From Amycolatopsis sp. FBCC-B4732 (lineage in GTDB: Bacteria > Actinomycetota > Actinomycetes > Mycobacteriales > Pseudonocardiaceae): 64,000 nt of DNA. Shown here one piece after another: positions 1 to 17,306 of this stretch (its first letter is position 1; each line of letters begins with the position of its first letter). Below the pieces are notes generated by a model. The model did no database searches. It worked only from the letters and a program-made list of their open reading frames with translations, and was not told the DNA's origin. The position numbers and the translations under genes were made by a program. Location: NCBI RefSeq assembly GCF_023008405.1, contig NZ_CP095376.1:4488001-4552000 (forward strand), in the 5' to 3' direction.

Positions 1-1074
1 GGCCTCCAGCACGTTGTCCAGCGGCGTGCCCTGCGCCAGCAGGCGCAGCTCGATGGGGGCGTCCGGGTCGAGGGTGACCACCCGGTTCTTCACCTCCGCC
101 AGGAGGGCCAGCGCGATCTGCCGGTGCGCCAGCTCCGGCCAGACCTCCCGCGGGTCGGTCTCGGCCAGCCGGGCGCAGGCCGCGCCGAGCACCTCCCGGG
201 CGGTGTCGATCGAGCCGAGTTCTTCGTGCCGGCCCCGCAGTTCCTGCTGTCCCGCCTCGTCGTAGGTGTCGTACCGGGCGACGGAAGCGGCCAGCGCCCG
301 CACGTACTCGGTCTGCTGCCGCGCCTCCGGTGGCTGCGGGGTGTCCCCGGCGGCCTGCAGCAGGGCGAGGTTGTCGCGGTACCGGACCAGGTCGGCGTCG
401 TCGAACCGGATCGGCCGGGTCGAGGAGCCGCCGGCGACCGCCATCGGGTCCAGGTAGCGCCCGAGCCGCGCGCTCAGCAGGCGGATGTGCTCGCAGGCGT
501 CCTTGTCCCCGATCTGCGCGAGCAGCTTGGTGGCGGGGTTGTACCGGTGGTCGTCGGTCGTGTCGCACTTGACGACGAACCGGAAGCCCTCCTCGACGCG
601 GGACGGCACGCACCCCGGCGACGGGCACGGCTCCTCGGTGGCGAACGGCGTGACCGCGCCGGTCATGCTCTCCTCGTACCGCACGAAGAGCCCGAAGTGG
701 CGCTGGTCGTCGTCGCACGGGTCGCCGCAGCCGACGCCCGGCGAGGACACCCGCAGCTCGCGCACGAGCGCCTGCACGTCGACCTTCTCCTTGCAGGACA
801 GTACGATGTCGTTGCCGCAGCAGTCCAGCGCGTGCCCGGGGTGCACGAGCACGGTCCCGCCCGTGCACGAACCGCAGGTGACCTCGAGCCCGCACACGAC
901 GCCGGGACCCGACAACATCCGGTTGTGCAGCCGGTCCTTCCCGGCCACGTAGTCGGTCAGCAGCGTGAGGTCGTCCTCGGTGAGCAGCTGCCCCGAGAAG
1001 AACCGCGGCCGGACGAACGCGGCGGGGAAGGCCGGCGCCCCGCCGCACCCGCACCCGCACCCAGACGTGCTCAT
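1..1074 (-). CDS. Contractile-injection-cluster protein with FxSGxLLT motif, partial (C-terminus beyond window)
   Basis: The frame is open from ATG at 1074 to the window edge (358 codons), so the C-terminus is missing. The N-terminus is very rich in Cys and Gly (Cys at residues 6, 8 and 10), followed by a conserved stretch reading FFSGQLLTEDD and GPGVVCGLEVTC. The next gene upstream carries the same pattern (YFHGRLLTARD, GYGVVCGLFV), so the two are paralogues. More Cys pairs follow (DCCGND, GCGDPCDDD, CPSPGC). Its ATGA overlaps the stop of the upstream gene, placing it in the same operon. I know this motif from unnamed proteins in phage-tail-like clusters, but not a function. A structural or metal-binding role is only a guess. 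Confidence 0.7.
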   Translation of the reverse strand, partial: MSTSGCGCGCGGAPAFPAAFVRPRFFSGQLLTEDDLTLLTDYVAGKDRLHNRMLSGPGVVCGLEVTCGSCTGGTVLVHPGHALDCCGNDIVLSCKEKVDVQALVRELRVSSPGVGCGDPCDDDQRHFGLFVRYEESMTGAVTPFATEEPCPSPGCVPSRVEEGFRFVVKCDTTDDHRYNPATKLLAQIGDKDACEHIRLLSARLGRYLDPMAVAGGSSTRPIRFDDADLVRYRDNLALLQAAGDTPQPPEARQQTEYVRALAASVARYDTYDEAGQQELRGRHEELGSIDTAREVLGAACARLAETDPREVWPELAHRQIALALLAEVKNRVVTLDPDAPIELRLLAQGTPLDNVLEA

Positions 1075-2267
1075 GAACGCTCCTCGGTGATGAAGAACCA
1101 GCTCTCGAAGACGTCGCCGCCGGCGCCGGTGCCCGACGTCCACGGCCCGATGCCCGTCGGCGGGACGAGGCACCCGGTCGGGTCCGGCTCGGGCTTGGGG
1201 TCGTGGCCGTGGCCGGTCTCGGTCTCGACGTCGGTGTCCGCGTGGCCGGTGAAGGGGACCCGGCCGCCGACGTTGGTGCCGTCGACCGGGCGGCAGCAGT
1301 GGTCGAGGATGAACGCGGCGCGGACGGTGATCAGCACGCGATCGCCGTCCTGCAGGGTCTCGCGGGTCGTCTGCCGGTAGCGGAAGTGGTCGGTGAACTC
1401 GCCGTCCTTCGGGGTGGGTTCCTCGAACGCGCCGCCCATGTACCAGGTGTCGGCGTTGCGCCCGGCCCCGCCTTCGATCACCTGGATCTCGACCACCCCG
1501 CGGCGCAGGCTGTCGACGCGGACGCCGTCGGAGAACTCGACGACCAGGCCGCCGGAGTTCTTCTGCGTGCCGAGCAGTTCCCTGGCCTCGTTCACCGTGT
1601 AGGTGTGGCCGTGCTTCCAGTTGACGCCGGTGATCACCGTCGGGACGCGGCGGCCGAAGAACCGGCGGACGTCGAGGTGGATCCGGTCTTCGCGGACCGG
1701 CTGGGCGAAGTCGACGTCGTCGATCCGGGCCAGCCACAGGACCTTGTGCTCGCACCGGGTGCAGCAGGTCTCGCAGCGCTCGTCCTTCGGCGGCGTCTTG
1801 GTGGTGACGCGGACGCAGTAGCTCTCCTCGGTGTAGCCGAAGTCGCAGTCCGAGGTGTCCCCGCAGGCGGAGTTGAACACCGTCCGGGTCGGCTCGACCG
1901 CGCGTTCGGTGTACTCGACGCCGACCCACACGGTCGTCCCGGTGCGCTCGTCCTCGGGCAGCGCGTCCCACAGGTCGATCGCGCAGCTGCCCGGCACGAG
2001 CACCTCGTTGCCGTCGCAGTCGACGCCGAGCCCGCTGGTGATGTGCACCCTGGCGTGGTGTTCGTGCTTTTCTTCGCCGCCGGTCTTCGGCGCGGGTTCC
2101 ACGAACAGCCCGCACACCACGCCGTAGCCGAGCAGGCAGCGCATGCGCAGCTTCAGCTTTTCGCGGAAGTACTCCTGCTCCCGCTGGAAGTCGCGGGCGG
2201 TGAGCAGCCTGCCGTGGAAGTACCGCAACCGGCGGAAGGCCTGTTCCTCTGTCGTTGCCTCGGTCAT
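1071..2267 (-). CDS. Contractile-injection-cluster protein with YFHGRLLT motif (398 aa)
   Basis: This is a 398-aa protein. I start it at ATG 2267 (MTEATTEEQAF), 13 bases after the upstream stop and behind an AGAGGA ribosome site; a longer frame exists but has unlikely sequence. Residues about 12–60 carry the YFHGRLLTARDF...GYGVVCGLFV pattern shared with the next gene. A Cys cluster (CETCCTRC) near residue 170 and other Cys pairs could bind metal. The middle has beta-rich, hydrophilic sequence, and the C-terminus is Pro/Gly-rich. It sits at the baseplate end of the operon. The function is not known to me; it may be a baseplate-associated or adaptor protein. Confidence 0.72.
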   Translation of the reverse strand: MTEATTEEQAFRRLRYFHGRLLTARDFQREQEYFREKLKLRMRCLLGYGVVCGLFVEPAPKTGGEEKHEHHARVHITSGLGVDCDGNEVLVPGSCAIDLWDALPEDERTGTTVWVGVEYTERAVEPTRTVFNSACGDTSDCDFGYTEESYCVRVTTKTPPKDERCETCCTRCEHKVLWLARIDDVDFAQPVREDRIHLDVRRFFGRRVPTVITGVNWKHGHTYTVNEARELLGTQKNSGGLVVEFSDGVRVDSLRRGVVEIQVIEGGAGRNADTWYMGGAFEEPTPKDGEFTDHFRYRQTTRETLQDGDRVLITVRAAFILDHCCRPVDGTNVGGRVPFTGHADTDVETETGHGHDPKPEPDPTGCLVPPTGIGPWTSGTGAGGDVFESWFFITEERS

Positions 2268-2280
2268 CTCTTCTGTCCTC

Positions 2281-4197
2281 TCAAGACACTCGCGTGTGGA
2301 CCCCGACCGCGGACGCCACACCGACGCTCACCCCGTGGCGGGCGCCCCGTGGCCCGGACCTCAGTACTCCGTCGTGGTACAGGCGCGCGCCGCCCACCAC
2401 CGGCGGCGGCAACGGGACGAACGCCGTGTCGACCCCGATCGCCGAAAGCGTGCCGACCACGAACCCCGATCCGCCGATGCGCACCGCACCCTTCGTGTGC
2501 GCCGGTGCCTGCCGGACCACCAGGCGCCGCACCGCCTCCTCGTCGGCCGCGCCGGCGGGCAGCAGGACCCGGAACCGGTGGGCGTGCTCGGTGAGGGGGT
2601 CGGTGTCCGGGTCGCCGAACGCCCGCAGCGGCGCCGCGCCCAGCGTCGAGGTGTCCAGCCGCAGCCGCGACGACGAGCGGCCGAACAGCCGCACCGAGCC
2701 GAGGCCGCGGGCGGACGGCGGCCCCGCGGTCGCGCGGACCTGCGCCCAGTGGCGGTCGCCGGCCAGCTCGTCGATGACCGGGTCGACGTCGAAGACGATC
2801 TTGATCGCTTCTTCCAGCGCGGCCGGCGTCCCGCGCCGCCGGTACAGCCCGGGCGCGGCGGTGATCAGCTTCCGGCGCGTTTCCGCGTCCCAGCCCGCTT
2901 CGAACGCCAGGCCCAGCAGCGCGGCCAGCCACGGCAGTGCGCCGTCCGGCACGCCGGCCGCGTCGAGCAGCGCCGGGTACCGCTCGAGGACCCGGTCGAG
3001 TTCGGCCGTGGTGGCGTCGAACAGGGACAGGAACCGTTCGGTGAAGTCGTCGGCCGCCGGGTCATGGCGGAACGCGGCGGGCAGCAGGTCCGCGCTGGTG
3101 GCGCGCGGGAAGTCGAGCCGGATCCGGTGCAGGACCGGCGTCGCCGACGAGTCACCGGACAGCCGCACGCGGGCGGTGAGGTGGCGCCCGGGTGGCTGGT
3201 CGACGAGGAAGTCGGTGCCGCCGGCGGGCGCGGTCTGCCAGTCGCTCTCGGCGAACTCACCGTTTTCGGACACCACGATCGACACCGACACCGCCGTGCC
3301 CGCCGGCACGTCCGCTTCCACCCGCACCCGGTGCCAGCGGCAGCGCGAGATCCCGCTGTCGATCAGGAGGGTGGTGAACTCGCCCTCGGTGACGAACTGA
3401 CCGGACCCGGCCGGCGGTTCCTCGCGCGGCTCGCCCGCCCAGTCGTAGCAGGTGGTCACTTCGCCGTCAGGTCCCTGTTCGCGCAGGCAGAAGCCGTCGT
3501 CGTCCGCACCGGTCAAACTGCTCGGCGGCAGCGCGGCCGCCAGTTCGTCCAGTGTGGACTCGCAGTGATCCCGGTAGATCCGCAGGCGGCCGGCTTCTTC
3601 GGTGAGCAGCCAGATCGTGCACCCGGGTCCGGTGCGGATGCCGACGATCTGGCCGCGGACGTGCGTCCGGACGACCTCGCGCAGCCGACCGTCGGGGCCG
3701 TAGCGCCGCAACCGGTCGCTGCCCGCACGAGCGACGAGCACCTGCTCGTCCTGCGCGAGCGCGACGACCGAGGCGTCCCGGAGCTCGATCACCGCGACCA
3801 GCTGGTCGCCTTCGTTGCGCCACACGAAGACCCGGCCGGAGTCGACCACGGCGACCCGGTGCCCGCGCGCGGCGACGGCCGTCGGCGCGTGCAGCAGCCG
3901 GGGGTCGCAAGAGGGCGGCCACACCGGCAGCCAGCCACCCGCGCAGGTGTCCCGGCGCAGCAGCCGTTCGCCGGAGAGCAGGTACCACGCGCAGGGCCGG
4001 CACCCGGGCGCCAGGCGCGGGTCGGGGAACCACGGCAGCAGCCGGGCCCGCGTCGGGCCGTCCGGGGACGCGCCGGCGTGGGCGAGCCGGACGCCGGTCT
4101 CGTCCGCGAACCCGACGAGGTCCGCCACGACGTCCTGGTCCCACCCGACGACGGCGTCGAGGAGCCGGAACGTGGCGTTCTCGGGCGTGCACGTCAT
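2281..4197 (-). CDS. Phage tail protein I-like baseplate protein (638 aa)
   Basis: The start is ATG 4197, which overlaps the upstream stop as ATGA. The first ~330 residues look like repeated beta-strand blades (VAVVDSGRVFVW, VVALAQDEQVLVAR, IVGIRTGPGCTIWLL), suggesting a beta-propeller or similar domain. Residues from about 395 match the gpI/TIGR02242 type of tail protein: FTERFLSLFDATTAELD, then LPWLAALLGLAFEAGW and APGLYRRRGTPAALEEAI. Its place right after two gpJ-like genes fits the usual baseplate order J–I. The role is inferred as a baseplate wedge component with an added N-terminal domain. The family call is good; the propeller is a guess from sequence pattern. Confidence 0.8.
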   Translation of the reverse strand: MTCTPENATFRLLDAVVGWDQDVVADLVGFADETGVRLAHAGASPDGPTRARLLPWFPDPRLAPGCRPCAWYLLSGERLLRRDTCAGGWLPVWPPSCDPRLLHAPTAVAARGHRVAVVDSGRVFVWRNEGDQLVAVIELRDASVVALAQDEQVLVARAGSDRLRRYGPDGRLREVVRTHVRGQIVGIRTGPGCTIWLLTEEAGRLRIYRDHCESTLDELAAALPPSSLTGADDDGFCLREQGPDGEVTTCYDWAGEPREEPPAGSGQFVTEGEFTTLLIDSGISRCRWHRVRVEADVPAGTAVSVSIVVSENGEFAESDWQTAPAGGTDFLVDQPPGRHLTARVRLSGDSSATPVLHRIRLDFPRATSADLLPAAFRHDPAADDFTERFLSLFDATTAELDRVLERYPALLDAAGVPDGALPWLAALLGLAFEAGWDAETRRKLITAAPGLYRRRGTPAALEEAIKIVFDVDPVIDELAGDRHWAQVRATAGPPSARGLGSVRLFGRSSSRLRLDTSTLGAAPLRAFGDPDTDPLTEHAHRFRVLLPAGAADEEAVRRLVVRQAPAHTKGAVRIGGSGFVVGTLSAIGVDTAFVPLPPPVVGGARLYHDGVLRSGPRGARHGVSVGVASAVGVHTRVS

Positions 4198-6296
4198 GGG
4201 GACTCCTCCACCGGGATCAGCAGCGGGCGCTCCGGCCACACCAGGTCGGCCGGCGGGATCGGGTGGTCGGCGCACGGCGGCAGCCGCAGCCCGTCGGCGG
4301 TGAGCACGAGCCCGGACACCGCGAGGACACCGTCGACGGCCAGGAGCCGGCGCACCAGCGCGGTGTGCCGTACCGCGCCGCCGAACGGCCAGCCGCCGCC
4401 GTTTTCCCCGCCCCGCAAGGGATCCAGGTAGGTGGTCACCGCGTCCGCCGCTCCGGCGAGGACGGCGGCCCGGTCCTGGCCGGTGTCGAGCACGACCCTG
4501 GCCTCGACGCCGATCCGCCGGAACGCGACCGGGCCGGCGACCACCGTGACGCCGGCGGGCGCCACCTCGCGGGAGAGGAAGTCGGCCACCGCGCGCAGGG
4601 TCGCGGCGGTCGGGACCGGCGGCTCGGTGCCGCCCGCCTCGAACGGCGGCACCACCAGGACACCGACGACACCGGGGATGGGCGTGCCGGCGAAGTCCGG
4701 GTGCAGGCCCGGCACGCCGTTCGCGCGGGCGATCGAGGCGCCCGGCGCGCGCAGGGCCAGCAGGCCGTAGTCGGCGGGGGCGACGGCCCGGCCGCGGGAG
4801 CGCAGTTCCTCCACCCCGCGCCGCACGACGTCGGCGTCGGGCTCGGCGTCGGAGCCGCCGGTGGCGGGGAACGGGTTGGTCACGCCGGTCACGAACGGCC
4901 GCGCGGTGCGGAGGCCGTTGACGGCACCGGCCGCCACCGCGCCCGCCGCGCCGCCGCCGACGCGGTAGCGCACCGCGCGGACGTTGCGGAAGCCCGGCGG
5001 CACGGGCGCGCCGTTGACGCCGTCGCCGAAGGTGACCACGCCGGTGTCGTAGTCGACGACGAACACGCGGTCGTCCGGGCCGTGGGCGGCGAGGCTCGGC
5101 ACCTCCTGCCAGGGCGACGCGGTCCCTTCAGTGGTGCCGAACAGGTCCATGCCCGGGTCGTCATCGACTTCGATGACCACGGTGCCGGCCAGGATCGGGA
5201 CCTGGCTCAGCCGCAGCCGCCGTCGTTCGGACGGGTTCGCCGGGTCCTGGATCGGTTCCAGCGGCTCGTCGAAGATCGTGCGGGCCGCGGTGGCCGCGAC
5301 GGTGTTCAGCCGCAGGCCCGAAACGAGCGGCGGCGCCACCACCGCTTCTCGGGGGGTCCGGGTGGCGGAGCCCCCGGCCTGGGGCGGAGCCCCAGTTGAC
5401 ACCGTGAACGTGCCCTGCGCGACCTGCAAGCGCAGCCAGCGCAGCGCCGGGCCGGGGCGCGCGGCCGGCGGCTGCCCGGGTGCCCAGGTACGGGGCACCC
5501 GCAGCTCCACCGTGCCGCTGGCGCGCAGCCCCCGCGTCTCGTCGCGGACGACTTCGGCGGGCCGGAACCGGCCGCCGTCCAGCACGTCCCAGCGCAGCAG
5601 CGGCTGGGGTGCCAGGGGCAGCGGGGTGAGCCCGCCGGCGGCCGCGGGCACCGGCGGCGCGGCCGCGACCACGAAGCCCAGCGACAGCGAGGGGAACGGG
5701 CTCGCGGTGCCGTCGAGGCCCAGCCAGAGCGCGTTGCCCGGCTGGGGCTCGGTGCCGAAGGGCGCGAACGGGCGGCCGGGCCCGTTCGGGCCGAGCGGGA
5801 CCGGCTCGAGCGCCCCGCCCCGCTGCACGGCGAGCACACCCAGGGTGGCGGGGGTGGCGTAGAGGTCCTGGTCGGTCTCGTAGACGACGTCGCCGTCGGT
5901 ACCGGTGGCGGCGGCCTGGAACCCGGCGGGGACGAGCACCGAAGCGCCGTCCGGCGGCTTCACGGTGAACTCGAGCAACGCGGCCGCCGCGGTGGCGGGC
6001 CGGCGCCGCACGCCGGCGGTGCCCAGGTGCTCGGCGAGGATCTTCTCCGGCAGCCGGTTGACCCGCAGCAGCACGGGCTCGGCCTGGGCACCGAAGAGCC
6101 GCACGAGCGCGACCCCGGCGTCCTGCCGGTCGGGGTTGGTCCAGTCCGGGGTGTAGCCGGGGATCCGGTCCCGCACGGCGGCGCGAACCGCTTCCCGCGA
6201 TGCGTCGACGAGCTCCGGCTCCACCCCGGACGGCCCGGGGCCGGGCACCATGTGCGCGTCTTCGCCCGAGTCGCGGGCCCACCAGACGTCGGTCAC
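4194..6296 (-). CDS. Baseplate assembly protein, gpJ-like (second copy, 700 aa)
   Basis: The start is GTG 6296 (VTDVWWARDSGE), overlapping the upstream stop by GTGA. A longer open frame continues upstream but is only the antisense-like extension inside the previous gene. N-terminal residues about 46–72 (IPGYTPDWTNP...AGVALVRLFG) are the hallmark of actinobacterial 'putative baseplate assembly protein' (Afp11/12-like). The central part has the VVTFGDGVNGAPVPPG signature of J-like wedge proteins. The C-terminus contains the DVVRRGVEELRSRGRAVAPADY pattern split over a long linker. In known contractile systems such proteins form the baseplate wedges around the spike. It lies next to a second gpJ-like gene and a gp25 gene. 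Confidence 0.87.
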   Translation of the reverse strand: MTDVWWARDSGEDAHMVPGPGPSGVEPELVDASREAVRAAVRDRIPGYTPDWTNPDRQDAGVALVRLFGAQAEPVLLRVNRLPEKILAEHLGTAGVRRRPATAAAALLEFTVKPPDGASVLVPAGFQAAATGTDGDVVYETDQDLYATPATLGVLAVQRGGALEPVPLGPNGPGRPFAPFGTEPQPGNALWLGLDGTASPFPSLSLGFVVAAAPPVPAAAGGLTPLPLAPQPLLRWDVLDGGRFRPAEVVRDETRGLRASGTVELRVPRTWAPGQPPAARPGPALRWLRLQVAQGTFTVSTGAPPQAGGSATRTPREAVVAPPLVSGLRLNTVAATAARTIFDEPLEPIQDPANPSERRRLRLSQVPILAGTVVIEVDDDPGMDLFGTTEGTASPWQEVPSLAAHGPDDRVFVVDYDTGVVTFGDGVNGAPVPPGFRNVRAVRYRVGGGAAGAVAAGAVNGLRTARPFVTGVTNPFPATGGSDAEPDADVVRRGVEELRSRGRAVAPADYGLLALRAPGASIARANGVPGLHPDFAGTPIPGVVGVLVVPPFEAGGTEPPVPTAATLRAVADFLSREVAPAGVTVVAGPVAFRRIGVEARVVLDTGQDRAAVLAGAADAVTTYLDPLRGGENGGGWPFGGAVRHTALVRRLLAVDGVLAVSGLVLTADGLRLPPCADHPIPPADLVWPERPLLIPVEESP

Positions 6297-9215: not shown

Positions 9216-10405
9216 GGTTTGTCCCCCTGGAAGATCCGCCGGGCGGTGAAGGTGGTGAAGAACCCGCTCGTGTTGAGGGCGTGCTCCACGCGCTTGACGA
9301 AGTAGGTGCCGGAGAACCGGCGGCCGAGGCCGAAGATCTCCAGGTTGTCCCCCGGCTGCAGCTCCGGCAGCCCGGCCAGGCGGCCGGTCGCGGTGATGAA
9401 CTCGTAAGCCCGCTCCCGCAGCAGCGAGATGGCCAGCTCCTTGGCTTCCTCCTGGCTGAGCACGGGCGCGTCGACGATCACCTCTTGGCGGCCGCCGGTC
9501 GCGGTCTCCGCCGCTTCGGGCCCGCTCTGCCCGTCGGCCGAGTTCTGGCCGCCGGGCAGGTCCTGCGAGGTCGCGACGTACTCGATCGGCTCCGCCTTGA
9601 CCGGGTCCCAGCCATGCACGGTGAGCTTGCTGACCTGGTTGGACAGCGTCATGGTCGGGGTGAAGTCGAGGAGGTTGGGCACCAGGCCGGCCGGCTGCCC
9701 ACCGGGCCCCGACGCCAGCCCCGGGCTGTAGGCGAGGCGGAACACCCGGATCGGGCGGCTGTCGCGGCCGTCGGTGGGCTTGACGAAGTACAGCGTCTGC
9801 ACGCCGGTCTTCGGGTCCGGCAGGATGTAGCAGTCGAAGTCGATCCGCTTCGCCCGTTCCATCAGGAACTGGGCGTCGGACTGGTTCTTCTGCACCACGA
9901 GGTCGTGCCGTGGGCCCTCGTGGGTCGTCTTGACCGCCAGGTGGTTGCGCCGCGCGATCTGCTCGGCGATCTCCCAGTCGGTCTTGCGGACGAAGTTCTT
10001 GTCCTCGTCCTTCGTGGGCTTGCGGTCCTTGAGGTCGAGCATCCCGTCGACGCAGGTGATGGAGACGGTCGGCGAAGCCCCGTCCGGGAACTTGGGCGCG
10101 AGCGAGCTGATCTTCCCGGTGGCGACGGTCAGCAGCCGGTCGGCGTAGCCGAGCCGGACGGAGACTAGCCTGCCGATCTGCAGGTCCTTCGAGTCGCTGT
10201 GCTTGAACTTCAGCGCGACGTCGTCCCAGTTGTTCAGCTCGAGGTCGAAGCCGGACATCTCGTCGAGGTCGCGGTGCACCTTGATGTCGAGGACGTCGTT
10301 CTTGGTCGCCGGGTCGGTCGTCAGGCCGTCGACGACCACCTCGAACTCGGGTGCGTAGCCGTCCGGGTCGGCGATTTCGGGCTGGGTGCCGGCGGGCGCG
10401 GTCAT
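9212..10405 (-). CDS. gpD-type baseplate hub protein (late control D family, 397 aa)
   Basis: The start is ATG 10405, 13 bases after the LysM gene. The sequence has the gpD/VgrG N-terminal fold: FDLELNNWDDVALKFKHSD, then IGRLVSVRLGYAD, and repeated beta hairpins. FTPTMTLSNQVSKLTVHGWDP is typical of the hub domain in actinobacterial tail clusters. The C-terminal GRRFSGTYFVKRVEHALN is conserved in phage late control D proteins. In the particle it would form the trimeric hub between the tube and the spike encoded by the next gene, with which it overlaps by ATGA. Confidence 0.9.
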   Translation of the reverse strand: MTAPAGTQPEIADPDGYAPEFEVVVDGLTTDPATKNDVLDIKVHRDLDEMSGFDLELNNWDDVALKFKHSDSKDLQIGRLVSVRLGYADRLLTVATGKISSLAPKFPDGASPTVSITCVDGMLDLKDRKPTKDEDKNFVRKTDWEIAEQIARRNHLAVKTTHEGPRHDLVVQKNQSDAQFLMERAKRIDFDCYILPDPKTGVQTLYFVKPTDGRDSRPIRVFRLAYSPGLASGPGGQPAGLVPNLLDFTPTMTLSNQVSKLTVHGWDPVKAEPIEYVATSQDLPGGQNSADGQSGPEAAETATGGRQEVIVDAPVLSQEEAKELAISLLRERAYEFITATGRLAGLPELQPGDNLEIFGLGRRFSGTYFVKRVEHALNTSGFFTTFTARRIFQGDKP

Positions 10406-10418: not shown

Positions 10419-11081
10419 TCACGGCAGCCGGGGCACGGTCAGCACCAGCCCCGGCCGCAGGTCGCGTGGATCGGCGATGCCGTTGGCGCGCGCCAGTTCC
10501 CGCCAGGCGTCCGGGCGCCGGTACACGGCGGCGGAGATGCGGTCCCAGGTGTCGCCGCGGCGCACGACGTAGCTCTTCTCCACCGTCGGCGAGGACCGCG
10601 GCGGGTCCACGGCCTGGTCCTTCGCCAGGCGATACTCCTTGAGTGTGAGGTCCAGCTGGGCCCGCAGCGGGACGCCGTTCTTGGCGAACAGCACGTAGTT
10701 CACGTCCAGCTTCTCCAGCACGCCCTTGAACACCGGCCCGTTCCAGTGGAACCGGACGATCGGCGGCGCGTGCTCGGTGCTGTCGATCCGCATCAGGTCG
10801 CGGATGGCGTCCACATAGGACGTCCGGACGTCGTTCAGCGTGTCCGAGGTGTCGACCAGCGCCTGCAGCGTCAGCGATTCGGTACTGCCGCGGATGAACT
10901 GGATCGGCGGCGTCTCCAGCCCGGGGATGGTGATCTCGGCGAAGGTGTTGCTCTTGCTCAGCTTGTACTCGGTCGGGTTGAACCGCAGCGGGATCACCTG
11001 CGGCGTCCGGTTCGGCGGCCGCTCGATCTCCAGGTGCGCGTCGGCGCCCTGGCTCACCGACGAGAACGGTGTGGTGATCAC
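10419..11081 (-). CDS. LysM-domain tube–baseplate connector (Afp7/gp53-like, 220 aa)
   Basis: I place the start at GTG 11081 (VITTPFSSVSQGADAHLE), because this overlaps the upstream stop by GTGA as in most junctions of the operon. Residues 25–150 have the FNPTEYKLSKSNTFAEI pattern of the CIS tube-end protein. Residues 171–220 are a LysM repeat (YVVRRGDTWDRISAAVY ... LRPGLVLTVP). In related systems this protein joins the end of the inner tube to the hub. The LysM in these proteins is a structural module in the particle rather than proof of peptidoglycan binding. Confidence 0.88.
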   Translation of the reverse strand: MITTPFSSVSQGADAHLEIERPPNRTPQVIPLRFNPTEYKLSKSNTFAEITIPGLETPPIQFIRGSTESLTLQALVDTSDTLNDVRTSYVDAIRDLMRIDSTEHAPPIVRFHWNGPVFKGVLEKLDVNYVLFAKNGVPLRAQLDLTLKEYRLAKDQAVDPPRSSPTVEKSYVVRRGDTWDRISAAVYRRPDAWRELARANGIADPRDLRPGLVLTVPRLP

Positions 11082-11266
11082 CGGCTGCCTCCCGAATCCC
11101 CGATCCTGCGGTCGTTCCCGCTGCGCTCGGCCCGCGCGCACTCTTCTTCGTACAGCCGTGACCAAGCCTGGATGTGCTTGTTGAACAGGCGGGTGAACAG
11201 CGCCCCGTCGTCGCCTTCCAACTGGAACCGCACTTCGAGGTTGTGGATGATCAGGTTCTTGGGCAC
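11078..11266 (-). CDS. Small contractile-injection-cluster protein (62 aa)
   Basis: This short gene starts at GTG 11266 (VPKNLIIHNLEVRF) with a clear TAGGAGA ribosome site 8 bases upstream, and ends overlapping the next gene. It has an N-terminal beta-like stretch and a charged helix (RLYEEECARAERS). Small proteins in this slot, between the second tube and the LysM protein, are common in such clusters (families like DUF5908 or DUF6760). I cannot tell which family this is, or whether it is structural or a chaperone. Confidence 0.65.
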   Translation of the reverse strand: MPKNLIIHNLEVRFQLEGDDGALFTRLFNKHIQAWSRLYEEECARAERSGNDRRIGDSGGSR

Positions 11267-11277: not shown

Positions 11278-11778
11278 CTAGAGGACGGCCGTCAGGCCCT
11301 CGTGGGCGATTTCCAGTGATTCGATCGCGACCGCGTTCTGCTCGGCGTGCAGGTCCGGGCCGGTCCACTTCGCGGCGAGGCCGCCGTGGAAGAGCCACGA
11401 CTTCGCGGGCAGCCCGGCCTCGTCGAGCATGATCAGGGCGCCGTCGCGGCGGGCCCCGAGCGAGTCGTGCAGGCCGGTTTCGTACCAGGACCACAGCAGG
11501 CGGTCGCGGACCACGCCGCGCTTGAGCGTGATCGGGTTCCACGAGTGGCGCAGCGGCAGCTTGTGCACCGCGTCGTTGCGCCCGCCTTCGGGGTAGTTGA
11601 CCACCTCCAGCTGCGCACCCAGCCCGGTCACCTCCTGGAAGGCGCCCGAGGCCACCACCTGCAGCAGCAGGGCCTGCGCCGGCGGCAGGTAGACGTCCGC
11701 CGCCGACAGCGTCACGAGGAAGCGGAACTTGGGCAGCGGCTCGTTGAGCGCGAGCAGCTGGTCGACCGGTGTCGTCAT
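11278..11778 (-). CDS. Tail tube protein 2 (gp19/Afp5-like, 166 aa)
   Basis: The start is ATG 11778, overlapping the sheath 2 stop by ATGA. The protein shows the tube fold pattern: FRFLVTLSAADVY, FQEVTGLGAQLEVVNYPEGG, LPLRHSWNPITLKRGVVRD and WYETGLHDS. It is slightly longer than tube protein 1 and more divergent, as expected for the variant that forms the tube end next to the LysM connector and hub. In Afp/PVC this role belongs to Afp5. The tube forms the channel for cargo. Confidence 0.88.
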   Translation of the reverse strand: MTTPVDQLLALNEPLPKFRFLVTLSAADVYLPPAQALLLQVVASGAFQEVTGLGAQLEVVNYPEGGRNDAVHKLPLRHSWNPITLKRGVVRDRLLWSWYETGLHDSLGARRDGALIMLDEAGLPAKSWLFHGGLAAKWTGPDLHAEQNAVAIESLEIAHEGLTAVL

Positions 11779-13259
11779 TGCTCGAGCACCTCCAGGCCGC
11801 GGTCCTGGCCGAGCACGAGCCGCAGCGCGATGAACTCCATGGGCACGGCCGGCGCGACTTCGACCTCGCACACGACCCGGCCGGGGTCCTGCTCCGGCGG
11901 GTTGTTGGTTTCGTCGCACACCACGCGGAAGGCGTCCTCGGGCCGGGAGCCGGCGAGCGCCCCGGTGCGGAACGCCTCCAGCAGCACCGACGTGATCGCG
12001 CGGACCAGCGCCAGCCGCAGCTCCGGCGCGTTCACCTCGAACACCAGCGGCGCGGCGGCCCGCCGGATGGCCCGCACCAGCAGGTGCAGCAGCCGGCGGT
12101 GGGCGACGTACACCCGGCGCGGGTCGGCCGACAGCGTCCGCCCGCCCCACACCACGAGCCCGCGGCCCCGCAGGCACCGCACCAGGTCGACGCCCGCGTC
12201 GAACAACCGGACCTGCTGCGCTTCCGGGTACTCGACCTCGAGGTCGACCGCGTCCAGCAGCGTGGCGTTGGCCGGGGTGTGCGCGGCGCCGCGCTCGGCG
12301 TCGAGCCGGGCCACCAGGCCCGCGACGTGCCCGGACGCCGGGACGGTCCGCAATCCGGTGCCGTCGGGCGCGGGCGCCCGCAACGGCGGGTGGTAGACCG
12401 CCGCCGCGGCGAGCAGCACCTCGTCGCCGAAGCTCGTCAGCGCTTCGGTCCAGGCCGTGACTTCGTCCACTGTGGACAGGTCCGGCGGCACGTCGAGCAG
12501 CACCAGCCGGTCCAGCAGCGGGGCGACCACCCGGAGCAGCTCCAGCACCAGGTCCGTGTGGTCGGTGCCGGTGAGGTCGGCACCGAGGTCCGGGAGGGCC
12601 ACCAGCGCCGGCTCGGGCAGTTCGGCCTGCGCCACCACGGCGTCGGCGTACTCGTTGTGCCCCGGCGGGCTGTCCGTGCCGCCGGCGAGCGTGAGGTCCC
12701 ACGCCAGCGAGATCGGCGCGTCCGCGGGGATCGGGCTCACCGGCCGGTCCGGGCCGAGCGGCACCAGCCGGATCAGCCGGGACCCGGCGAGCCGGTCGGC
12801 GACGTCCCCGGGCGCCATGCCCGCGAAGGTCTCCGCCGGTTCACCGGGCACGAGCACCCGCACGGTGACCGCCGGCGGACCCGCGACGCTGCTCCCCCGG
12901 TACCGCACGGTGACCCGGCCGCCGTTCGCCCACGCGCCGGGACTCGCGGCCACCACGCGGTAGTCGTCCGTCCACCGCGCACCGGCGAACCCGGCGGGCC
13001 CGGACACCCGCAGCACCCACGCCGCCCGGCCCTGGTTCTCGAAGAACCCGCGCAGCGCGTACGGCGTCGCCGACGTCCCGTCCGGTGGCCCGAACTCGCC
13101 GACGACGTCGTTCCAGCTTTCGACGCGCACGGGACGGCCGAGCGGGCCGCGCCGGGTGCGGCCGAGGAACACGGCCACGTCCGTGCGCAGCGGCTCGTCC
13201 CCGGCCGCCGCGCGGTCGAAGGTCAGGGAAACGCCGGGAAGCGCCGCGCTGGTCATCAC
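11775..13259 (-). CDS. Tail sheath protein 2 (494 aa)
   Basis: The start can be GTG 13259 (GTGA overlap with the tube 1 stop) or ATG 13256 (TGATG); I keep the GTG because it follows the operon's rule. The N-terminus (SALPGVSLTFD-like, with VAVFLGRTRRGPLGRPVRV) and the C-terminus (LVRAITSVLLEAFRTGALAG...FRVVCDETNN) are typical of contractile sheath proteins. It lacks the extra middle domain of sheath 1 and is 260 residues shorter. Systems with several sheath genes (Afp2–4) use one major and one or two minor sheath proteins; this is likely a minor one at the baseplate end. Confidence 0.87.
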   Translation of the reverse strand: MMTSAALPGVSLTFDRAAAGDEPLRTDVAVFLGRTRRGPLGRPVRVESWNDVVGEFGPPDGTSATPYALRGFFENQGRAAWVLRVSGPAGFAGARWTDDYRVVAASPGAWANGGRVTVRYRGSSVAGPPAVTVRVLVPGEPAETFAGMAPGDVADRLAGSRLIRLVPLGPDRPVSPIPADAPISLAWDLTLAGGTDSPPGHNEYADAVVAQAELPEPALVALPDLGADLTGTDHTDLVLELLRVVAPLLDRLVLLDVPPDLSTVDEVTAWTEALTSFGDEVLLAAAAVYHPPLRAPAPDGTGLRTVPASGHVAGLVARLDAERGAAHTPANATLLDAVDLEVEYPEAQQVRLFDAGVDLVRCLRGRGLVVWGGRTLSADPRRVYVAHRRLLHLLVRAIRRAAAPLVFEVNAPELRLALVRAITSVLLEAFRTGALAGSRPEDAFRVVCDETNNPPEQDPGRVVCEVEVAPAVPMEFIALRLVLGQDRGLEVLEQ

Positions 13260-13714
13260 GCGTCGATCACGAAGCTCTCGACGGCCAGCACGAGCGTCTC
13301 CATGGCGATCTCGTTCTTGGTCGCGTTGAACGACGGTCCGGTGTACTTCGTCGGCCAGCCCCGGTCGAAGTTCCAGCGCATGACCTCCTGGCGGTTCTCG
13401 TCGAGCATCACGATCGAGCCGGACGTGCGCCGCACGCGGCCGTCGAGCGCTTCCTTCACCCAGTTCCAGAACCCGACGTGGCCGGTGACCCCGCGCTTGA
13501 ACGTCAGCGCGCTCGGGAACTTCTTGAGGCCCACGAGCTTGCGGACCGTGATGTCCTCGCTGCCGGTGCGGTACTCGATCACCGGCAGTTCCACGTCCAG
13601 CCCGCTGGCTTCGGTGAACGACCCGCTCACCGCGACGCCGTCGTCGCTGACGTTGGTCACGATGACCAGGAAGTTGTACGCGGCATACGGATCGTCGCGC
13701 GTCACAGGTGGCAT
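13256..13714 (-). CDS. Tail tube protein 1 (gp19/Afp1-like, 152 aa)
   Basis: The start is ATG 13714, 16 bases after sheath 1 and behind a GAAAGG ribosome site. The sequence follows the major tube family closely: YNFLVIVTNVSDDGVAVSG, FTEASGLDVELPVIEYRTGS, LVGLKKFPSALTFKRGVTG and WNWVKEALDG. It should polymerise into the inner tube inside the sheath. Its own ribosome site, unlike the coupled tube 2, fits a high-copy subunit. It is the clearest family member in the cluster. Confidence 0.93.
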   Translation of the reverse strand: MPPVTRDDPYAAYNFLVIVTNVSDDGVAVSGSFTEASGLDVELPVIEYRTGSEDITVRKLVGLKKFPSALTFKRGVTGHVGFWNWVKEALDGRVRRTSGSIVMLDENRQEVMRWNFDRGWPTKYTGPSFNATKNEIAMETLVLAVESFVIDA

Positions 13715-13730
13715 TTCGGTTGCCTTTCAG

Positions 13731-15995
13731 CTAGACGAGCTGGGGCTCGCGGGTCTTCTGCTGGATCCGGAAGATCACGAACTCCGCCGGGAACACCGGC
13801 GCCACCCCGATCACGCAGATGAGCCGTCCGTTCGCGATGTCGTCGTCGGTCATGGTGGAGCGGTCGCAGTGGACGAAGAAGGCCTCGTCCGCGGTCGTGC
13901 CGGCGAGCGCGCCGCTGCGCCACACGGTGGTCAGGAAGTTCGCGACCGTCTGCCGCACGAGCGCCCACAGCGATTCGTCGTTCGGTTCGAACACGACCCA
14001 CTGCGTGCCCTCGTCGATCGACTCCTCGAGGAACAGGAAGAGCCGGCGCACGTTGATGTACTTCCACGAGGTGTCCGAGGACAGCGTGCGCGCGCCCCAC
14101 ACCCGCTGGCCGAGGCCGGGGAAGAACCGCAGCGCGTTGATCCCCCGCGGGTTCAGCAGGTCCTGGTGCCGCTTGGTGACGTCCTGGGCGATGCCGTCGG
14201 TCAGCCGGATGCCGCGGATGACCGCGTTGGCCGGTGCCTTGTGCACCCCGCGCTCGACGTCGGTGCGAGCGTAGATCCCGATCATGTGCCCGGACGGCGG
14301 CACCTCGACGAACTGGTTGGTCGAGGGGTCGTTGACGACCAGCCACGGGTAGTACAGCGCGGCGTACTTGGTGTCGAACGGTTCCCGGAACTCCTGGATG
14401 CCTTCGATGTCGAGGCCGTCGCGCGGGTCGAGGACGGCGAACCGGTCCTTGAGCTGCTCGCAGTGCGTCACGAGCGCCGACTCGACGGTGCCCGCCCACA
14501 CCCCGGGCACCGCGCAGATCGCGATCTCGTCGATGTCCTCCAGCGCCACGATGCCGGTGCGCTTGCCGCTCCCGCCGTCGGTGCCGACGAAGTCCCCGAC
14601 GTCGAGGCCCCCGAAGGCGTCGTCGCCGTCGTCGGCGAGGCTGAGCCACGAGCCGGTGGCGGGCGTGGGGAACTCGGTGGGGTCGGTGCTCAGGTCCAGC
14701 GCGGTCGCCCGCACCAGCCGCGACTGGCTCGCCAGCGTGCCCGTCACGGTGCCCGGCGCGTCGCCGGTCAGGCGCAGGTTGCGGAAGGTCTCGGTCACCG
14801 AGCCGCCGCCGGGGTCGCCGAACCGGGTGTCCACTGTGGATTCGACCAGCAGGAGCCGGGCGGTCTCGAAGACCAGCGCGGGGGTGTCGGCACCGAACGT
14901 GACGACTTCGTCCGGCTCGATCGCCACCACGGTCAGGGTGCTCAGCTGGTCGCCCGTGTCGAGCTGGGCGAGCGCCCCCTCGTACAGCCGGCTCGAGCCG
15001 CTGATCCGCAGCTTCGGCCCGGCACCGGCGTTGGCCCGGCGCACCCGGCGCACGGTGAGGCCGGTCTTCCACGGCGCGTGGTGGGTGCCGTCGGGGAAGG
15101 TGAGCGTCACCTTGCCGGCTTCCGGCTGCGCCACGGTGACCGGGAAGCGCCGGTTGCCGATCAGGATCCAGACGTCGTCGGGCAGGTCGTCGGGGTCGAG
15201 CCCGGGGACGGCGTCCACCTGGACCGACCCGGCGTCGGCGTCGGCTTCGGCGGCGAGCGCGGTGATGAACAGCGGCCCCTCGTTCGGGTCGGGCAGCACC
15301 GGCAGCGACGCGCTCACCGACGGCGAGATCCGCACCTGGACCGCCTTGCCCCAGGAACCGGGGCTCGACGCGGAGAACCGCAGGCTCGGCGTCGCCACCC
15401 GCGGGGCCTTCTGCACGTAGTCGCCGCGGGCCGCCTTGACCTCCGCCGGCAGCCCGGTGCCGAGGGTGACCCGCCCCTTGGCGGCGTCGTAGGCGGTGAT
15501 CGTCACGGTGCCGATCTCGACGTTGTCGCTCCCGCGGAAGACCTTGACCTCGTCGGACCCGGTGAAGCCGACCAGGTGGGCCAGCTCCAGCACCTTCGCC
15601 CCGGCCGCGGCGTCCCGGGTGATCGCGCTGACCAGGCCGGTGCCGAGCGTGCCGGACGCCGCCTGCGCGGTCTCGCTGGCGACCCGCTTGACGTAGAGGC
15701 GCTGGCCGCCGTTGTCGAAGAACCCCTTGACCGCCAGCGGGAACAGCCACCAGCGGCCGCCCTCGGCCGGGTTTTCCGCCCAGGCGTCCCGGATCGCCGG
15801 GTCCGGCTCGGGCAGGAAGCCGCCGAAGGTCGTCTGGAACTCCAGGAAGTTCGTGACCAGCTTCGGCTTCCCGCCGGTCGGGCCGCGCTGGGTGACCCCG
15901 ACCATGCCCGCCGTGCTGGTGCTCACCCCCGCGATCGGCCGCGGCCCCGCGTCGACCTCCTCGACGTAGACGCCGGGGCTCAGGTATTCGGGCAT
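13731..15995 (-). CDS. Major tail sheath protein (754 aa)
   Basis: The protein starts at ATG 15995 with a strong AAGGAG ribosome site. It begins with the sheath signature EYLSPGVYVEEVDAGPRPI and continues with STAGMVGVTQRGP. The C-terminal domain has INALRFFPGLGQRVWGARTL, VRRLFLFLEESIDEGTQWVV and ending PVFPAEFVIFRIQQKT, all standard for contractile sheaths. The long middle region (about residues 120–480) is an insertion domain, as in long sheath proteins of many bacterial systems, and would face outward. It is the most abundant subunit in assembled particles. Confidence 0.94.
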   Translation of the reverse strand: MPEYLSPGVYVEEVDAGPRPIAGVSTSTAGMVGVTQRGPTGGKPKLVTNFLEFQTTFGGFLPEPDPAIRDAWAENPAEGGRWWLFPLAVKGFFDNGGQRLYVKRVASETAQAASGTLGTGLVSAITRDAAAGAKVLELAHLVGFTGSDEVKVFRGSDNVEIGTVTITAYDAAKGRVTLGTGLPAEVKAARGDYVQKAPRVATPSLRFSASSPGSWGKAVQVRISPSVSASLPVLPDPNEGPLFITALAAEADADAGSVQVDAVPGLDPDDLPDDVWILIGNRRFPVTVAQPEAGKVTLTFPDGTHHAPWKTGLTVRRVRRANAGAGPKLRISGSSRLYEGALAQLDTGDQLSTLTVVAIEPDEVVTFGADTPALVFETARLLLVESTVDTRFGDPGGGSVTETFRNLRLTGDAPGTVTGTLASQSRLVRATALDLSTDPTEFPTPATGSWLSLADDGDDAFGGLDVGDFVGTDGGSGKRTGIVALEDIDEIAICAVPGVWAGTVESALVTHCEQLKDRFAVLDPRDGLDIEGIQEFREPFDTKYAALYYPWLVVNDPSTNQFVEVPPSGHMIGIYARTDVERGVHKAPANAVIRGIRLTDGIAQDVTKRHQDLLNPRGINALRFFPGLGQRVWGARTLSSDTSWKYINVRRLFLFLEESIDEGTQWVVFEPNDESLWALVRQTVANFLTTVWRSGALAGTTADEAFFVHCDRSTMTDDDIANGRLICVIGVAPVFPAEFVIFRIQQKTREPQLV

Positions 15996-16011
15996 GGTTT
16001 CAGCTCCTTCT

Positions 16012-16737
16012 CTACTGCTCGACGATTTCGATGACGTGCCGGAGATGCCGTTCGGTGGGCAGCCGGACGTCCAGCGACCCGGTCCGCCCGGGCCGTTCGG
16101 TGGCCGTGAGGTGGAACAGCTGCACCGGCGGGGGCCCGGTGACGAGCTCGCCCTCCCAGCGCAGCGCGAGCCGGAACGCCCCGGCCGCGTCGGTCAGCGT
16201 CCGCTCCAGCCACGCGACGCCGTCCCGGCTCGTGACCCCCCGCGCTTCGACCAGCGCGTTCGCCACCGGCACCTGGTCCTCGGCGACGACCACGCCGTAG
16301 ACGGTGCGGACGCCGGACCCGTACGGGAAGGCGGTGCTCGGCAGCAGGCGGACCACGCGCGGCTCGCCGGCCGCGGCGGGCGGGGTGTCGTCGTCGTAGG
16401 GGTGGGCGGTGAACTCGACACCGGCCACGCCCGCGTCGAACGGCTCGCCGTCCGCCGGGTACAGCGGCGCGAGCCCGATGGCGGCGAAGCGGACGCGGAA
16501 CCGTTCCGGCTGCGCGCCCGGGCCCCGGCGGCGGCCGAGCTCCGGGTAGGCGAGCACCGCGCTCGGGGTGCGGATGGCCGGCGTTTCCTGGAGCACCCAG
16601 GCGTTTTCGGCCGGGTCGAAGCGTTCCAGCTCGGTGCTCACGTCGGCGGCCCGCGCGCGCTGGGCGAACTCGTCGAACGGCACGAACCAGGCCGGGCTGT
16701 GCAGGACGGAGGACTCGAGCGGGTGGAAGCGGGTCAT
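16012..16737 (-). CDS. Carboxypeptidase-regulatory-like domain protein of the injection cluster (241 aa)
   Basis: The start is ATG 16737, overlapping the cap-gene stop by ATGA. Residues about 135–215 (YGVVVAEDQVPVANALVEAR ... TLTDAAGAFRLALRW) form an Ig-like beta sandwich of the carboxypeptidase regulatory type. The N-terminal part has VLAYPELGRRRGPGAQPERF-like beta segments. Proteins of this kind sit between the cap and sheath genes in several actinobacterial and cyanobacterial clusters. The role is unknown; decoration or sheath/cap assembly are both possible. I see no signal peptide. Confidence 0.7.
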   Translation of the reverse strand: MTRFHPLESSVLHSPAWFVPFDEFAQRARAADVSTELERFDPAENAWVLQETPAIRTPSAVLAYPELGRRRGPGAQPERFRVRFAAIGLAPLYPADGEPFDAGVAGVEFTAHPYDDDTPPAAAGEPRVVRLLPSTAFPYGSGVRTVYGVVVAEDQVPVANALVEARGVTSRDGVAWLERTLTDAAGAFRLALRWEGELVTGPPPVQLFHLTATERPGRTGSLDVRLPTERHLRHVIEIVEQ

Positions 16738-17306
16738 GGCACCGGTGTCCCGTTGATCGTGCGGCTGCGGACCAGCCGCAGTTCGGAGACGTCGAGCGAG
16801 TCGAGGTTGACGACCCGGACCTCGTAGTTGAGGGACAGCCGGTACGGCTTCTGGATCGCGTACCAGATCCACGACTTCTGATCGAGCGTCAGCGGCGTCA
16901 GCGTGAACTGCAGCGCCTCGGTGGTGCCGGCCATGCTGCCGGTCAGCTCCTCGCCGGTCCAGATCGCGTCGTCGTAGAAGACCTGCAGCGCGCGGCCGAT
17001 CATCTGGTGCTGCGTCGCCTGGCTGCCGCCCCACGGCGTGATCAGGTACCGCAGCAGCAGCGCCATCGGCGGCTTGCGGCTCGTCGGCGCCGACGGCGGC
17101 AGCGACCGCACCGGCGGCCGGTTGCGCGAAGTCGGGTCTTCGGCGACCTCGTACAGGAAGACCGTGAGCGTGGCGCGGCTCGGCCGGTCCTCGAGGTCGC
17201 TCAGCACCGCCGTCGGCGGGTCGTGCGGATCCAGTACCCGCAGCGCCTCGTTGAGCCGGTCCACGATGATCGTCGAAACGTCCGCGACGACCCCGAAATC
17301 GCCCAT
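16734..17306 (-). CDS. DUF4255 cap/terminator protein (Afp16-like, 190 aa), first gene of the operon
   Basis: The start is ATG 17306 (MGDFGVVADVSTIIVDRL) behind a GGGGAGGAC ribosome site. The N-terminal helix STIIVDRLNEALRVL, then ATLTVFLYEVAEDPTSRNRP and PMALLLRYLITPW, are DUF4255 hallmarks. In Afp/PVC and Algoriphagus-type systems this family caps the end of the sheath–tube and sets length. It is the first gene, so the operon promoter must lie between 17,307 and the divergent small gene at 17,474. The short region suggests a compact promoter. Confidence 0.9.
   Translation of the reverse strand: MGDFGVVADVSTIIVDRLNEALRVLDPHDPPTAVLSDLEDRPSRATLTVFLYEVAEDPTSRNRPPVRSLPPSAPTSRKPPMALLLRYLITPWGGSQATQHQMIGRALQVFYDDAIWTGEELTGSMAGTTEALQFTLTPLTLDQKSWIWYAIQKPYRLSLNYEVRVVNLDSLDVSELRLVRSRTINGTPVP

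Follow-up and report, generated by a model that had tools for sequence, protein, structure and literature searches.

A putative contractile injection system of an actinobacterial clade with a seemingly self-tipped spike and a candidate polymorphic cargo

An operon on the minus strand at the left end of the window (the whole 64,000-nucleotide stretch of Amycolatopsis sp. FBCC-B4732 DNA that was analysed) probably codes for an extracellular contractile injection system (eCIS) that belongs to a separate clade within the actinobacteria, with a spike that would form its own tip and a 1499-residue protein as its proposed cargo. The operon comprises 20 or 21 genes and covers positions 1-17306 of the window and a further 6.4-6.7 kb to the left, where positions carry the prefix L004. 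The particle is proposed from the genes alone, and the metal at its spike tip and the loading of its cargo are likewise predicted.

Layout of the operon

The sequence-only reading had placed all of its named parts on one minus-strand operon leaving the left edge, and each lies where that reading put it; the two sheaths, two tubes, two gpJ-like proteins and one gpI-like protein have profile matches above curated cut-offs, which every named part except the hub passes. The first gene (16734..17306) encodes a Cis16/Pvc16-like (DUF4255) terminator or cap protein (Pvc16_N, 3e-39) and is followed by a 241-residue protein of unassigned function (16012..16737), placed by synteny and kept in the clade, with a CarboxypepD_reg-like stretch (8e-4, below the cut-off). 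Sheath 1 (754 residues; 13731..15995) matches Phage_sheath_1 (3.9e-13), Phage_sheath_1C (1.2e-18) and the PDB sheaths 9ezm (1e-113) and 8bky (1.7e-103), and sheath 2 (494 residues; 11775..13259) matches Phage_sheath_1 (2.5e-10) and 8bky (1.6e-56). Tube 1 (13256..13705) and tube 2 (11278..11778), the latter in the tube-initiator position, are Phage_T4_gp19 proteins (5.8e-35 and 5.1e-31). A small protein of 62 residues (11078..11266), kept in the clade and with no family match, is presumably Afp6-like, judging by its position only. It precedes a Cis7/Afp7-like protein (10419..11081; CIS_tube, 7e-28; LysM, 1.1e-7), the hub and the spike, after which come a gp25 wedge protein (8185..8586; GPW_gp25, 1.2e-20), the gpJ-like J1 (6293..8188) and J2 (4194..6296), and a gpI/Cis12-like protein (2281..4197; TIGR02242, 1.5e-22; CIS12_fam, 1.9e-37, below the cut-off).

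Both J1 (TIGR02243, 1.8e-55) and J2 (7.7e-68) match 9gtp_1K (5.6e-30 and 7.1e-52, respectively), a J-domain chain that occurs as 12 chains in the Streptomyces coelicolor baseplate and is taken to be Cis11. Cis11 is present twice per wedge in that baseplate (PMC12237407), and J1 and J2 may be two different subunits at the positions that this one protein fills twice. Two J genes are known from archaea, Cyanobacteria and Firmicutes, and two sheath ORFs from Myxococcaceae, Cyanobacteria and Gemmatimonas; the same survey credits Actinobacteria with just one J gene, a short one (PMC4122934).

The left part of the operon, also on the minus strand, holds three CIS13-like paralogues: a (398 residues; 1071..2267; CIS13_fam, 1.1e-18, below the cut-off), b (674 residues; L004:17050-19074, its 5' part being 1..1074) and c (L004:15920-17014). 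These are followed by proteins of 168 (L004:15402-15908) and 574 residues (L004:13681-15405), an AAA ATPase (L004:11601-13679; WHD, 1.2e-23; AAA, 1.8e-23) and, as the last gene, a conserved 98-residue protein (L004:11312-11608). Of the ATPase, cargo and fibre genes that had been expected to the left, the ATPase and a candidate cargo were found, but no tail fibre was recognized in Pfam, NCBIfam and PHROG scans (the latter two covering ten proteins each); a check for an Afp13-type fibre gave only N-terminal CIS13_fam matches below the cut-off, with a poor model of paralogue b. The classical eCIS tape-measure family CIS_TMP (Pfam) was unmatched among the operon proteins scanned and in a genome-wide search in which the control was also silent. 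The 574-residue protein occupies the Afp14 position and has neither a family nor a fold match, so that the true tape measure could sit there.

Candidate cargo beside the operon

The candidate cargo gene (1499 residues; L004:6167-10666, plus strand) is convergent with the operon and is overlapped by a partner gene of 215 residues (L004:10663-11310, plus strand). Its tape-measure-like trunk is conserved to residue about 830-850, while the tail is different in each of seven genomes: in the six neighbours, identity is 65-86% as far as trunk residue 830-831, with nothing significant shared beyond it, and pairwise comparison of the tails gave a best E value of 0.006. The protein is thus likely to be a polymorphic cargo with an exchangeable toxic C-terminal end. 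No convincing domain was found in its own 668-residue tail, and the tail of one relative resembles Endonuclea_NS_2 (1e-4, below the cut-off). In PHROG, a tape measure was the best match of each of the three trunks tested (4.5e-10, 5e-7 and 9.5e-7), although coiled coil can mislead such comparisons. The trunk, which has three hydrophobic segments, would occupy the tube and, once the particle fires, traverse a membrane and deliver the variable C-terminal domain, and the product of the overlapping gene could be the immunity protein; a same-strand gene downstream of the cargo homologue was called in only four of the seven cases.

It is possible, if somewhat unlikely, that this neighbouring gene encodes a polymorphic toxin of another system and that the effectors are the CIS13-like, 168-residue or 574-residue proteins or lie elsewhere. 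The gene stands outside the operon, and its homologue adjoins the operon in only seven of 14 clade genomes and lies elsewhere in the other seven; in genome G526 the sole homologue found, at 45%, is beside another, differently built eCIS. Among the matches listed, the trunk and a hub-like match are not within 10 kb of each other in 12 other genomes. ZorA-like coiled-coil proteins also match the candidate (9e-5), and DUF4157/eCIS_core does not, in a search whose controls also stayed silent. Against this, a trunk homologue is present in 14/14 clade genomes compared with 45/376 others in the family sample, and among the matches listed, 16 further cases place it no more than 10 kb from a hub-like match, one of them (G434) judged by eye. 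The tape-measure matches of the trunks likewise favour a cargo, and tape-measure-like CIS cargos have been published (PMC11126660, PMC13277306). By description rather than letter-by-letter alignment, the candidate is like S. davawensis Tme and S. lividans Sle1, large CIS-linked proteins that contain coiled coil and hydrophobic segments and distantly resemble tape measures (PMC11126660, PMC13277306), and shares variable C-termini with Sle1-type proteins; unlike these, it is convergent past the 3' end of the operon. For DUF4157/eCIS_core, the domain associated with Tme, it gave no match in the search with silent controls.

Hub, spike and the apparent lack of a PAAR gene

The hub (397 residues; 9212..10405, minus strand) is a free-standing gpD/gp27-like protein that matches phrog_52 (tail protein; 3.5e-23) and, below their cut-offs, NCBIfam VgrG_rel (2.2e-16) and Phage_GPD (1.9e-4). 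The spike (8583..9215 or, from the alternative start, 8583..9194; minus strand) is a separate gpV-like protein with an OB domain, a beta-helix and a C-terminal HTH tip (Phage_base_V, 3.4e-23). Free-standing ORFs for the hub (389-407 residues) and the spike (203-263 residues) recur in 39/39 clade members, and the two are therefore genuine genes, as the sequence-only reading had proposed, rather than the product of a frameshift. That reading had also contrasted the split with Afp/PVC, where one VgrG-like protein forms hub and spike, but the split itself is not new: separate GPD and baseV ORFs were reported in 2014 from archaea and several bacterial phyla (PMC4122934), although the groups listed there omit Actinobacteria, and other actinobacterial eCISs are built likewise. 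The split is seen in 12/42 related hub/spike rows, and in the annotations of plasmid eCISs from Rhodococcus, Roseomonas, Nostoc and Haloferax the two proteins likewise appear as separate entries.

PAAR proteins sharpen many eCIS and T6SS spikes and are one place of effector attachment (PMC4122934, PMC10598620). A PAAR ORF, a usual but not obligatory eCIS feature, is absent from this operon as judged by one Pfam model and by the gene calls; gp25 is the next called gene after the spike in 38/39 clade members, whereas PAAR_motif was matched above its cut-off in 8/9 of the post-spike genes tested in split-type relatives. That model, PAAR_motif, found no match in the genome and matched in three controls. 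The free spike ends in a C-terminal H[T/V]H in all 39 clade members. None of the 42 comparator rows (41 distinct proteins) carries this H-x-H motif, nor does any of 11 spikes taken from a further 12 plasmid loci, making 52 comparator spikes (53 rows) in all. The tip aligns weakly with the phi92 spike 3pqh (E 0.0086, one phage), HTHPV.G..TG being identical, and the alignment with the iron-binding tip of phi92 falls exactly on the histidine motif. Set beside the six-histidine iron apex of R-tailocins, the clade thus has the motif throughout, with a weak phi92 match and a metal that is only predicted.

The spike therefore seems to close itself with a phage-style metal-holding tip instead of a separate cap protein. 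Particle assembly would be cytoplasmic; a gpD trimer would serve as the hub and a separate gpV-type trimer as the needle, its apex closed by a metal ion on the H-x-H motifs of three chains. A PAAR cap would then be unneeded because the spike apex would hold its own metal ion, as in phages P2 and phi92 and R2 pyocin (PMC10715212); those are phages and a tailocin, whereas the present spike, whose H-x-H aligns with that of phi92, sits in an eCIS with an AAA ATPase.

It is unlikely, but conceivable, that this is an ordinary eCIS in which the split and the spike tail are mechanically meaningless and the apex is capped by a protein that the models miss, such as the conserved 98-residue last gene product. 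The wide occurrence of the split would agree with this, and a missing PAAR gene behind the spike is not special to the clade: PAAR genes are also missing in the S. coelicolor CIS (PMC10066040) and in Deinococci, Proteobacteria and some Cyanobacteria (PMC4122934), gp25 directly follows the short spike of the Nostoc plasmid eCIS, and no PAAR gene is evident for spikes whose tail reads YTPGAGN.W. The presence of H-x-H in 39/39 clade spikes and in none of the 53 comparator rows, the match of HTHPV.G..TG to the iron tip of a solved structure and a genome devoid of PAAR_motif matches argue instead for the self-tipped spike.

Taken with the candidate cargo, there is about an even chance that the system is a hybrid of a tailocin needle and eCIS delivery, with PAAR lost, a free metal-tipped spike, two J wedges and a lumen cargo with an exchangeable toxin and a partner gene. 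If so, effectors could not ride on a PAAR cap, and delivery would rest on the tape-measure-like lumen cargo, which would be sufficient for it. A conserved PAAR-less clade with a phage-type tip would then separate spike sharpening from effector carriage and constitute a natural test of the purpose of PAAR.

Related systems, clade and flanking genes

One cluster holds the sheath, gp19 tube, gp25, J and gpI genes of eCIS/PLTS together with CIS_tube+LysM, DUF4255/Pvc16 and AAA ATPase genes, which supports the earlier assignment to an injection particle rather than a prophage or tailocin. As that reading had also noted, no capsid or terminase is seen: TerL (PF03354) and HK97-type capsid (PF05065), the two families covered, were unmatched genome-wide, with matching controls, and a scan of ten flanking and end genes turned up no phage gene. 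The H-x-H spike and the separate hub and spike genes are R-pyocin- and P2-like, taking gpD and gpV to be the gene names there. A tailocin or decayed prophage tail is nonetheless highly improbable, and already largely refuted, given these phage-model results, the Pvc16_N and CIS_tube+LysM genes and a WHD+AAA ATPase of a kind that pyocins lack (PMC4122934).

The operon shares the core order LysM, hub, spike, gp25, J and I, plus an ATPase, with the PLTS/dbeCIS superfamily of Sarris 2014 (PMC4122934); what sets it apart from that survey is the occurrence, in Actinobacteria, of a pair of J genes, a pair of sheaths and an H-x-H spike but no PAAR gene. In PDB comparisons, CISSc of S. coelicolor (8BKY, 9GTP) ranks first for J1 and J2 and among the best for both sheaths. 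It is also PAAR-less, but its spike is a VgrG-like Cis8, a single Cis11 fills two positions per wedge, and Cis2 is the one sheath described (PMC10066040, PMC12237407). The fused VgrG-like Cis8, single Cis11-like gene and single sheath gene of the CISSc subtype are thus not seen here.

The clade of 39 was assembled from 34 named loci, 13 family-search relatives, the present genome and an S. clavuligerus plasmid, less ten duplicates; the named loci span twelve named actinomycete genera, with 17/34 from Streptomyces. The S. clavuligerus CIS, located on plasmid CP065238, has a 71% identical hub, the same gene order and an H-x-H spike, an architecture absent from the available discussion in PMC13102240. 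A literature search, with most subscription papers outside its scope, found no paper treating the clade as a group.

A BTAD (SARP-type) regulator gene (17818..18519, plus strand; BTAD, 5.8e-20) is divergent from the operon and probably controls it; a similar gene is found at 27/39 clade loci, one of them doubtful. In S. clavuligerus, a CIS cluster carried on a plasmid is transcribed, and its CIS genes have been proposed to have a BTAD regulator (PMC13102240); we infer that this cluster is the clade member on CP065238. The regulator was absent from the sequence-only reading, as were the self-tipped spike lacking a PAAR gene, its clade-wide conservation and the polymorphic cargo candidate. A divergent 68-residue ORF with no family match (17474..17680, plus strand) is conserved next to the operon in many members of the clade.

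Operon layout and identity of the system

The window covers bases 4488001–4552000 of a single-contig genome of 10.19 Mb; 54 kb to its left were added and genes were called with a codon-usage script. The sequence-only reading had the operon passing the left edge of the window, and it does: the minus-strand operon runs from window position 17306 to 6.4–6.7 kb past that edge and contains 20 genes, or 21 if a 98-residue last gene with a weak coding score, yet conserved, is included (L004:11312–11608, minus strand, L004 being the DNA fetched to the left). In order, these encode a Pvc16-like protein, a 241-residue protein, sheath 1, tube 1, sheath 2, tube 2, a 62-residue protein, a CIS_tube protein with LysM, the hub, the spike, gp25, J1, J2, a gpI-like protein, three CIS13-like proteins (398, 674 and 364–377 residues), proteins of 168 and 574 residues, an ATPase (WHD and AAA) and the 98-residue protein. 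The two sheath, two tube, two gpJ-like and single gpI-like genes originally read are all present. The outcome is mixed for the genes expected further left, with the WHD and AAA protein supplying the ATPase and a 1499-residue protein being a candidate only for the cargo, while neither a fibre nor a tape measure is recognized.

No recognized tail fibre occurs in the operon. No CIS_TMP tape measure is recognized among the operon proteins; the corresponding whole-genome search also gave none, but its control was silent there, and the whole-genome eCIS_core search likewise returned no match, but with a silent control. The 574-residue protein in the Afp14 position has no family match, and its best PDB fold match has an E-value of 4.2 (predicted structure, pLDDT 69.7). 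The 674-residue CIS13-like paralogue has a predicted structure with a pLDDT of 62.8 and an unreliable N-terminal stretch of 178 residues, and a PDB search with the 398-residue paralogue gave nothing useful.

The initial impression that capsid and terminase genes are missing holds for the two profiles searched genome-wide: TerL (PF03354) and HK97-type capsid (PF05065) match nothing in the whole genome while their controls match. No phage family scored above cut-off in a scan of ten flanking and end genes, and a tRNA search of the window and the adjoining 38 kb on the left found none. A prophage or tailocin is ruled out by the gene families of the operon together with the lack of a TerL or HK97-type capsid match in the genome. 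The system is a genuine, intact-looking eCIS, which by analogy with that of S. coelicolor may act from the cytoplasm.

Hub, spike and spike tip

The proposed separation of hub and spike is confirmed across the clade of 39 loci with this eCIS type: both genes are free-standing in every member (hub 389–407 residues, spike 203–263 residues), overlapping by four bases in 28 loci according to the chosen start codons. A frameshift origin is ruled out by the retention of separate genes in all 39. Open-frame lengths had suggested fused hubs in some relatives, where ORF-level checks show the split; in genomes G771 and G772 an in-frame TGA seems to be the natural stop codon of the hub gene, as both have free hub ORFs and a spike read in another frame. 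Neither is the split unique to the clade or new, because 12 of 42 related hub/spike rows are split (30 are fused) and the arrangement also appears in the available text of Sarris et al. (PMC4122934). In a midpoint-rooted tree of 54 hub and spike OB-domain sequences the split types are scattered among the fused ones, which leaves the direction of change unreadable from it. The window clade groups there with relatives that have both the split and a PAAR gene (L047–L051 and L053; ultrafast bootstrap 92).

The gene following the spike in nine split-type relatives matches PAAR_motif above cut-off in eight cases; the ninth, in G299, encodes 509 residues with no family. Within the clade, gp25 directly follows the spike in 38 of 39 loci, the exception being L116 with a 414-base gap and gp25 uncalled; in G608 a gap of 188 bases precedes a shortened gp25. 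PAAR_motif has no match anywhere in the window's genome, where three controls matched. An H[T/V]H motif lies near the C-terminal end of the spike in all 39 members. In the comparators, an H-x-H after the OB domain occurs neither in 42 rows, which represent 41 distinct proteins, nor in 11 spikes from 12 loci on other plasmids, one locus having no spike match. Comparing 39/39 with 0/52 by a Fisher test yields a p-value of about 1e-26, which is descriptive rather than a probability as the sequences are related. The last 84 residues of the spike have the phage phi92 spike as their top match among PDB sequences (3pqh; E = 0.0086), with identity at HTHPV.G..TG, and a Pfam beta-helix domain falls below its cut-off (4e-4). 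In the tips of phi92, P2 and R2-pyocin, iron is bound by six histidines from three chains, according to the text available for PMC10715212. The position of gp25, the absence of PAAR_motif, the invariant H[T/V]H, the phi92 match and these histidine-held iron tips are best read as pointing to a self-closed spike tip with a presumed metal. The literature searched yielded no prior description of an eCIS spike with H-x-H.

The missing PAAR gene taken alone is not special to the clade, because S. coelicolor is also described without one (PMC10066040, in the text available) and a Nostoc plasmid eCIS has none and carries gp25 after a short spike. A third split-type ending, YTPGAGN(I/V/L)W or nearly so and without H-x-H, is found in L008, L137, L138, L139 and L141, and is possibly another self-made tip; inspection by eye found no PAAR-looking ORF (80–400 residues, start within 300 bases) beside these five spikes. 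G299 is placed among these relatives. Its split-hub eCIS (L089/L090) also has an unusually long second sheath of 1084 residues, the 509-residue gene occupying the usual PAAR place.

Baseplate, clade and regulation

J1 (window 6293–8188, minus strand) and J2 (4194–6296, minus strand) both match 9gtp_1K (12 chains), the J-domain chain of the S. coelicolor baseplate, which is taken to be Cis11 (6e-30 and 7e-52, respectively). A tree of 46 J sequences resolves them as two clade-wide paralogues, with weak deeper placement (60–70), and they may form a J1–J2 heterodimer. Sarris et al. (PMC4122934), in the text available, give Actinobacteria a single short J gene, whereas this actinobacterial clade has two. 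The system is regarded as a new variant on account of a spike that would form its own tip, with no PAAR gene, in combination with two J genes in Actinobacteria.

The 39 members comprise 14 genomes of the window's family (its own included), 24 named loci (34 minus 10 that duplicate contigs of those genomes) and one S. clavuligerus plasmid, and range over Amycolatopsis, Streptomyces, Actinoplanes and other actinomycetes. J1 is present in 37, J2 in 33 and gpI in 35, the shortfalls arising because some members are incomplete: L112 and L125 are short contigs, L131 and G608 are degenerate and L116, L120 and G556 have broken or uncalled genes. The clusters of S. samsunensis (L131) and Kibdelosporangium banguiense (L081/L082, the same as G608) look degenerate, with sheath, tube, J or I lost or shortened.

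Four S. clavuligerus plasmid records carry a hub 71% identical to that of the window, and the one examined whole (L181) has the clade gene order; this plasmid location suggests that the whole cluster moves between replicons. A BTAD (SARP-type) regulator (window 17818–18519, plus strand) is divergent from the operon and has a counterpart beside it in 26–27 of 39 clade loci, L134 being doubtful (24% identity, same strand). According to the available text of PMC13102240, a plasmid-borne CIS cluster of S. clavuligerus is up at 24 h under bldD overexpression, and a BTAD regulator acting on its CIS genes is proposed from network prediction; the clade cluster on the plasmid is presumably the one measured.

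A candidate cargo with a variable tail

The 1499-residue candidate (L004:6167–10666, plus strand) is encoded beyond the left end of the operon and on the other strand, and a 215-residue gene overlaps its end by four bases. It adjoins the operon in seven of the 14 family members of the clade; a same-strand downstream gene is called in four of the seven (G000, G519, G520 and G556) and none in the other three. The six other copies are 65–86% identical to the window's up to residue 830–831, with nothing significant beyond. In 50-residue windows, identity is 40–100% over residues 101–850 and 0–30% past 850, the N-terminus being variable and lower. The tails span 309–668 residues, with a best tail-to-tail match of E = 0.006. 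Two relatives have tails with a nuclease resemblance that stays below cut-off, to a DNA/RNA non-specific endonuclease in one (1e-4) and to an HNH nuclease in the other (0.04). The remaining five tails, including the window's, have no convincing domain match.

All three conserved trunks searched against PHROG have phage tape measures as best matches (4.5e-10, 5e-7 and 9.5e-7), and three stretches of the window's trunk are hydrophobic (618–644, 699–720 and 776–802). PADLOC gives only ZorA coiled-coil matches, to this protein. The candidate fits the tape-measure-like CIS cargos Tme and Sle1, with reservations, as far as the available text of PMC11126660 and PMC13277306 describes them.

Of the 390 family genomes, 59 have a homologue of a 700-residue trunk query, and these 59 include all 14 clade genomes; in one of the 14, G526, the sole homologue is 45% identical and sits beside another kind of eCIS. 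For genomes with both matches listed, and with the clade operon itself left out, trunk and hub-like matches lie less than 10 kb apart on one contig in 16 genomes among the matches listed, 15 of them at 7.9–9.0 kb (including G526 and G513, which belong to the clade and have a second eCIS), the case of G434 being added by eye. In 12 genomes among the matches listed the distance is larger or the two fall on separate contigs (G405, G406, G408, G461, G462, G463, G465, G471, G502, G546, G622 and G632).

The candidate shares the motif Q-D-x-V-G-N-x-A-x-A with the 98-residue last gene of the operon, and is the sole match to the derived pattern among 106 proteins of the region, a list outside which the 98-residue gene falls; the motif is possibly a shared loading signal.
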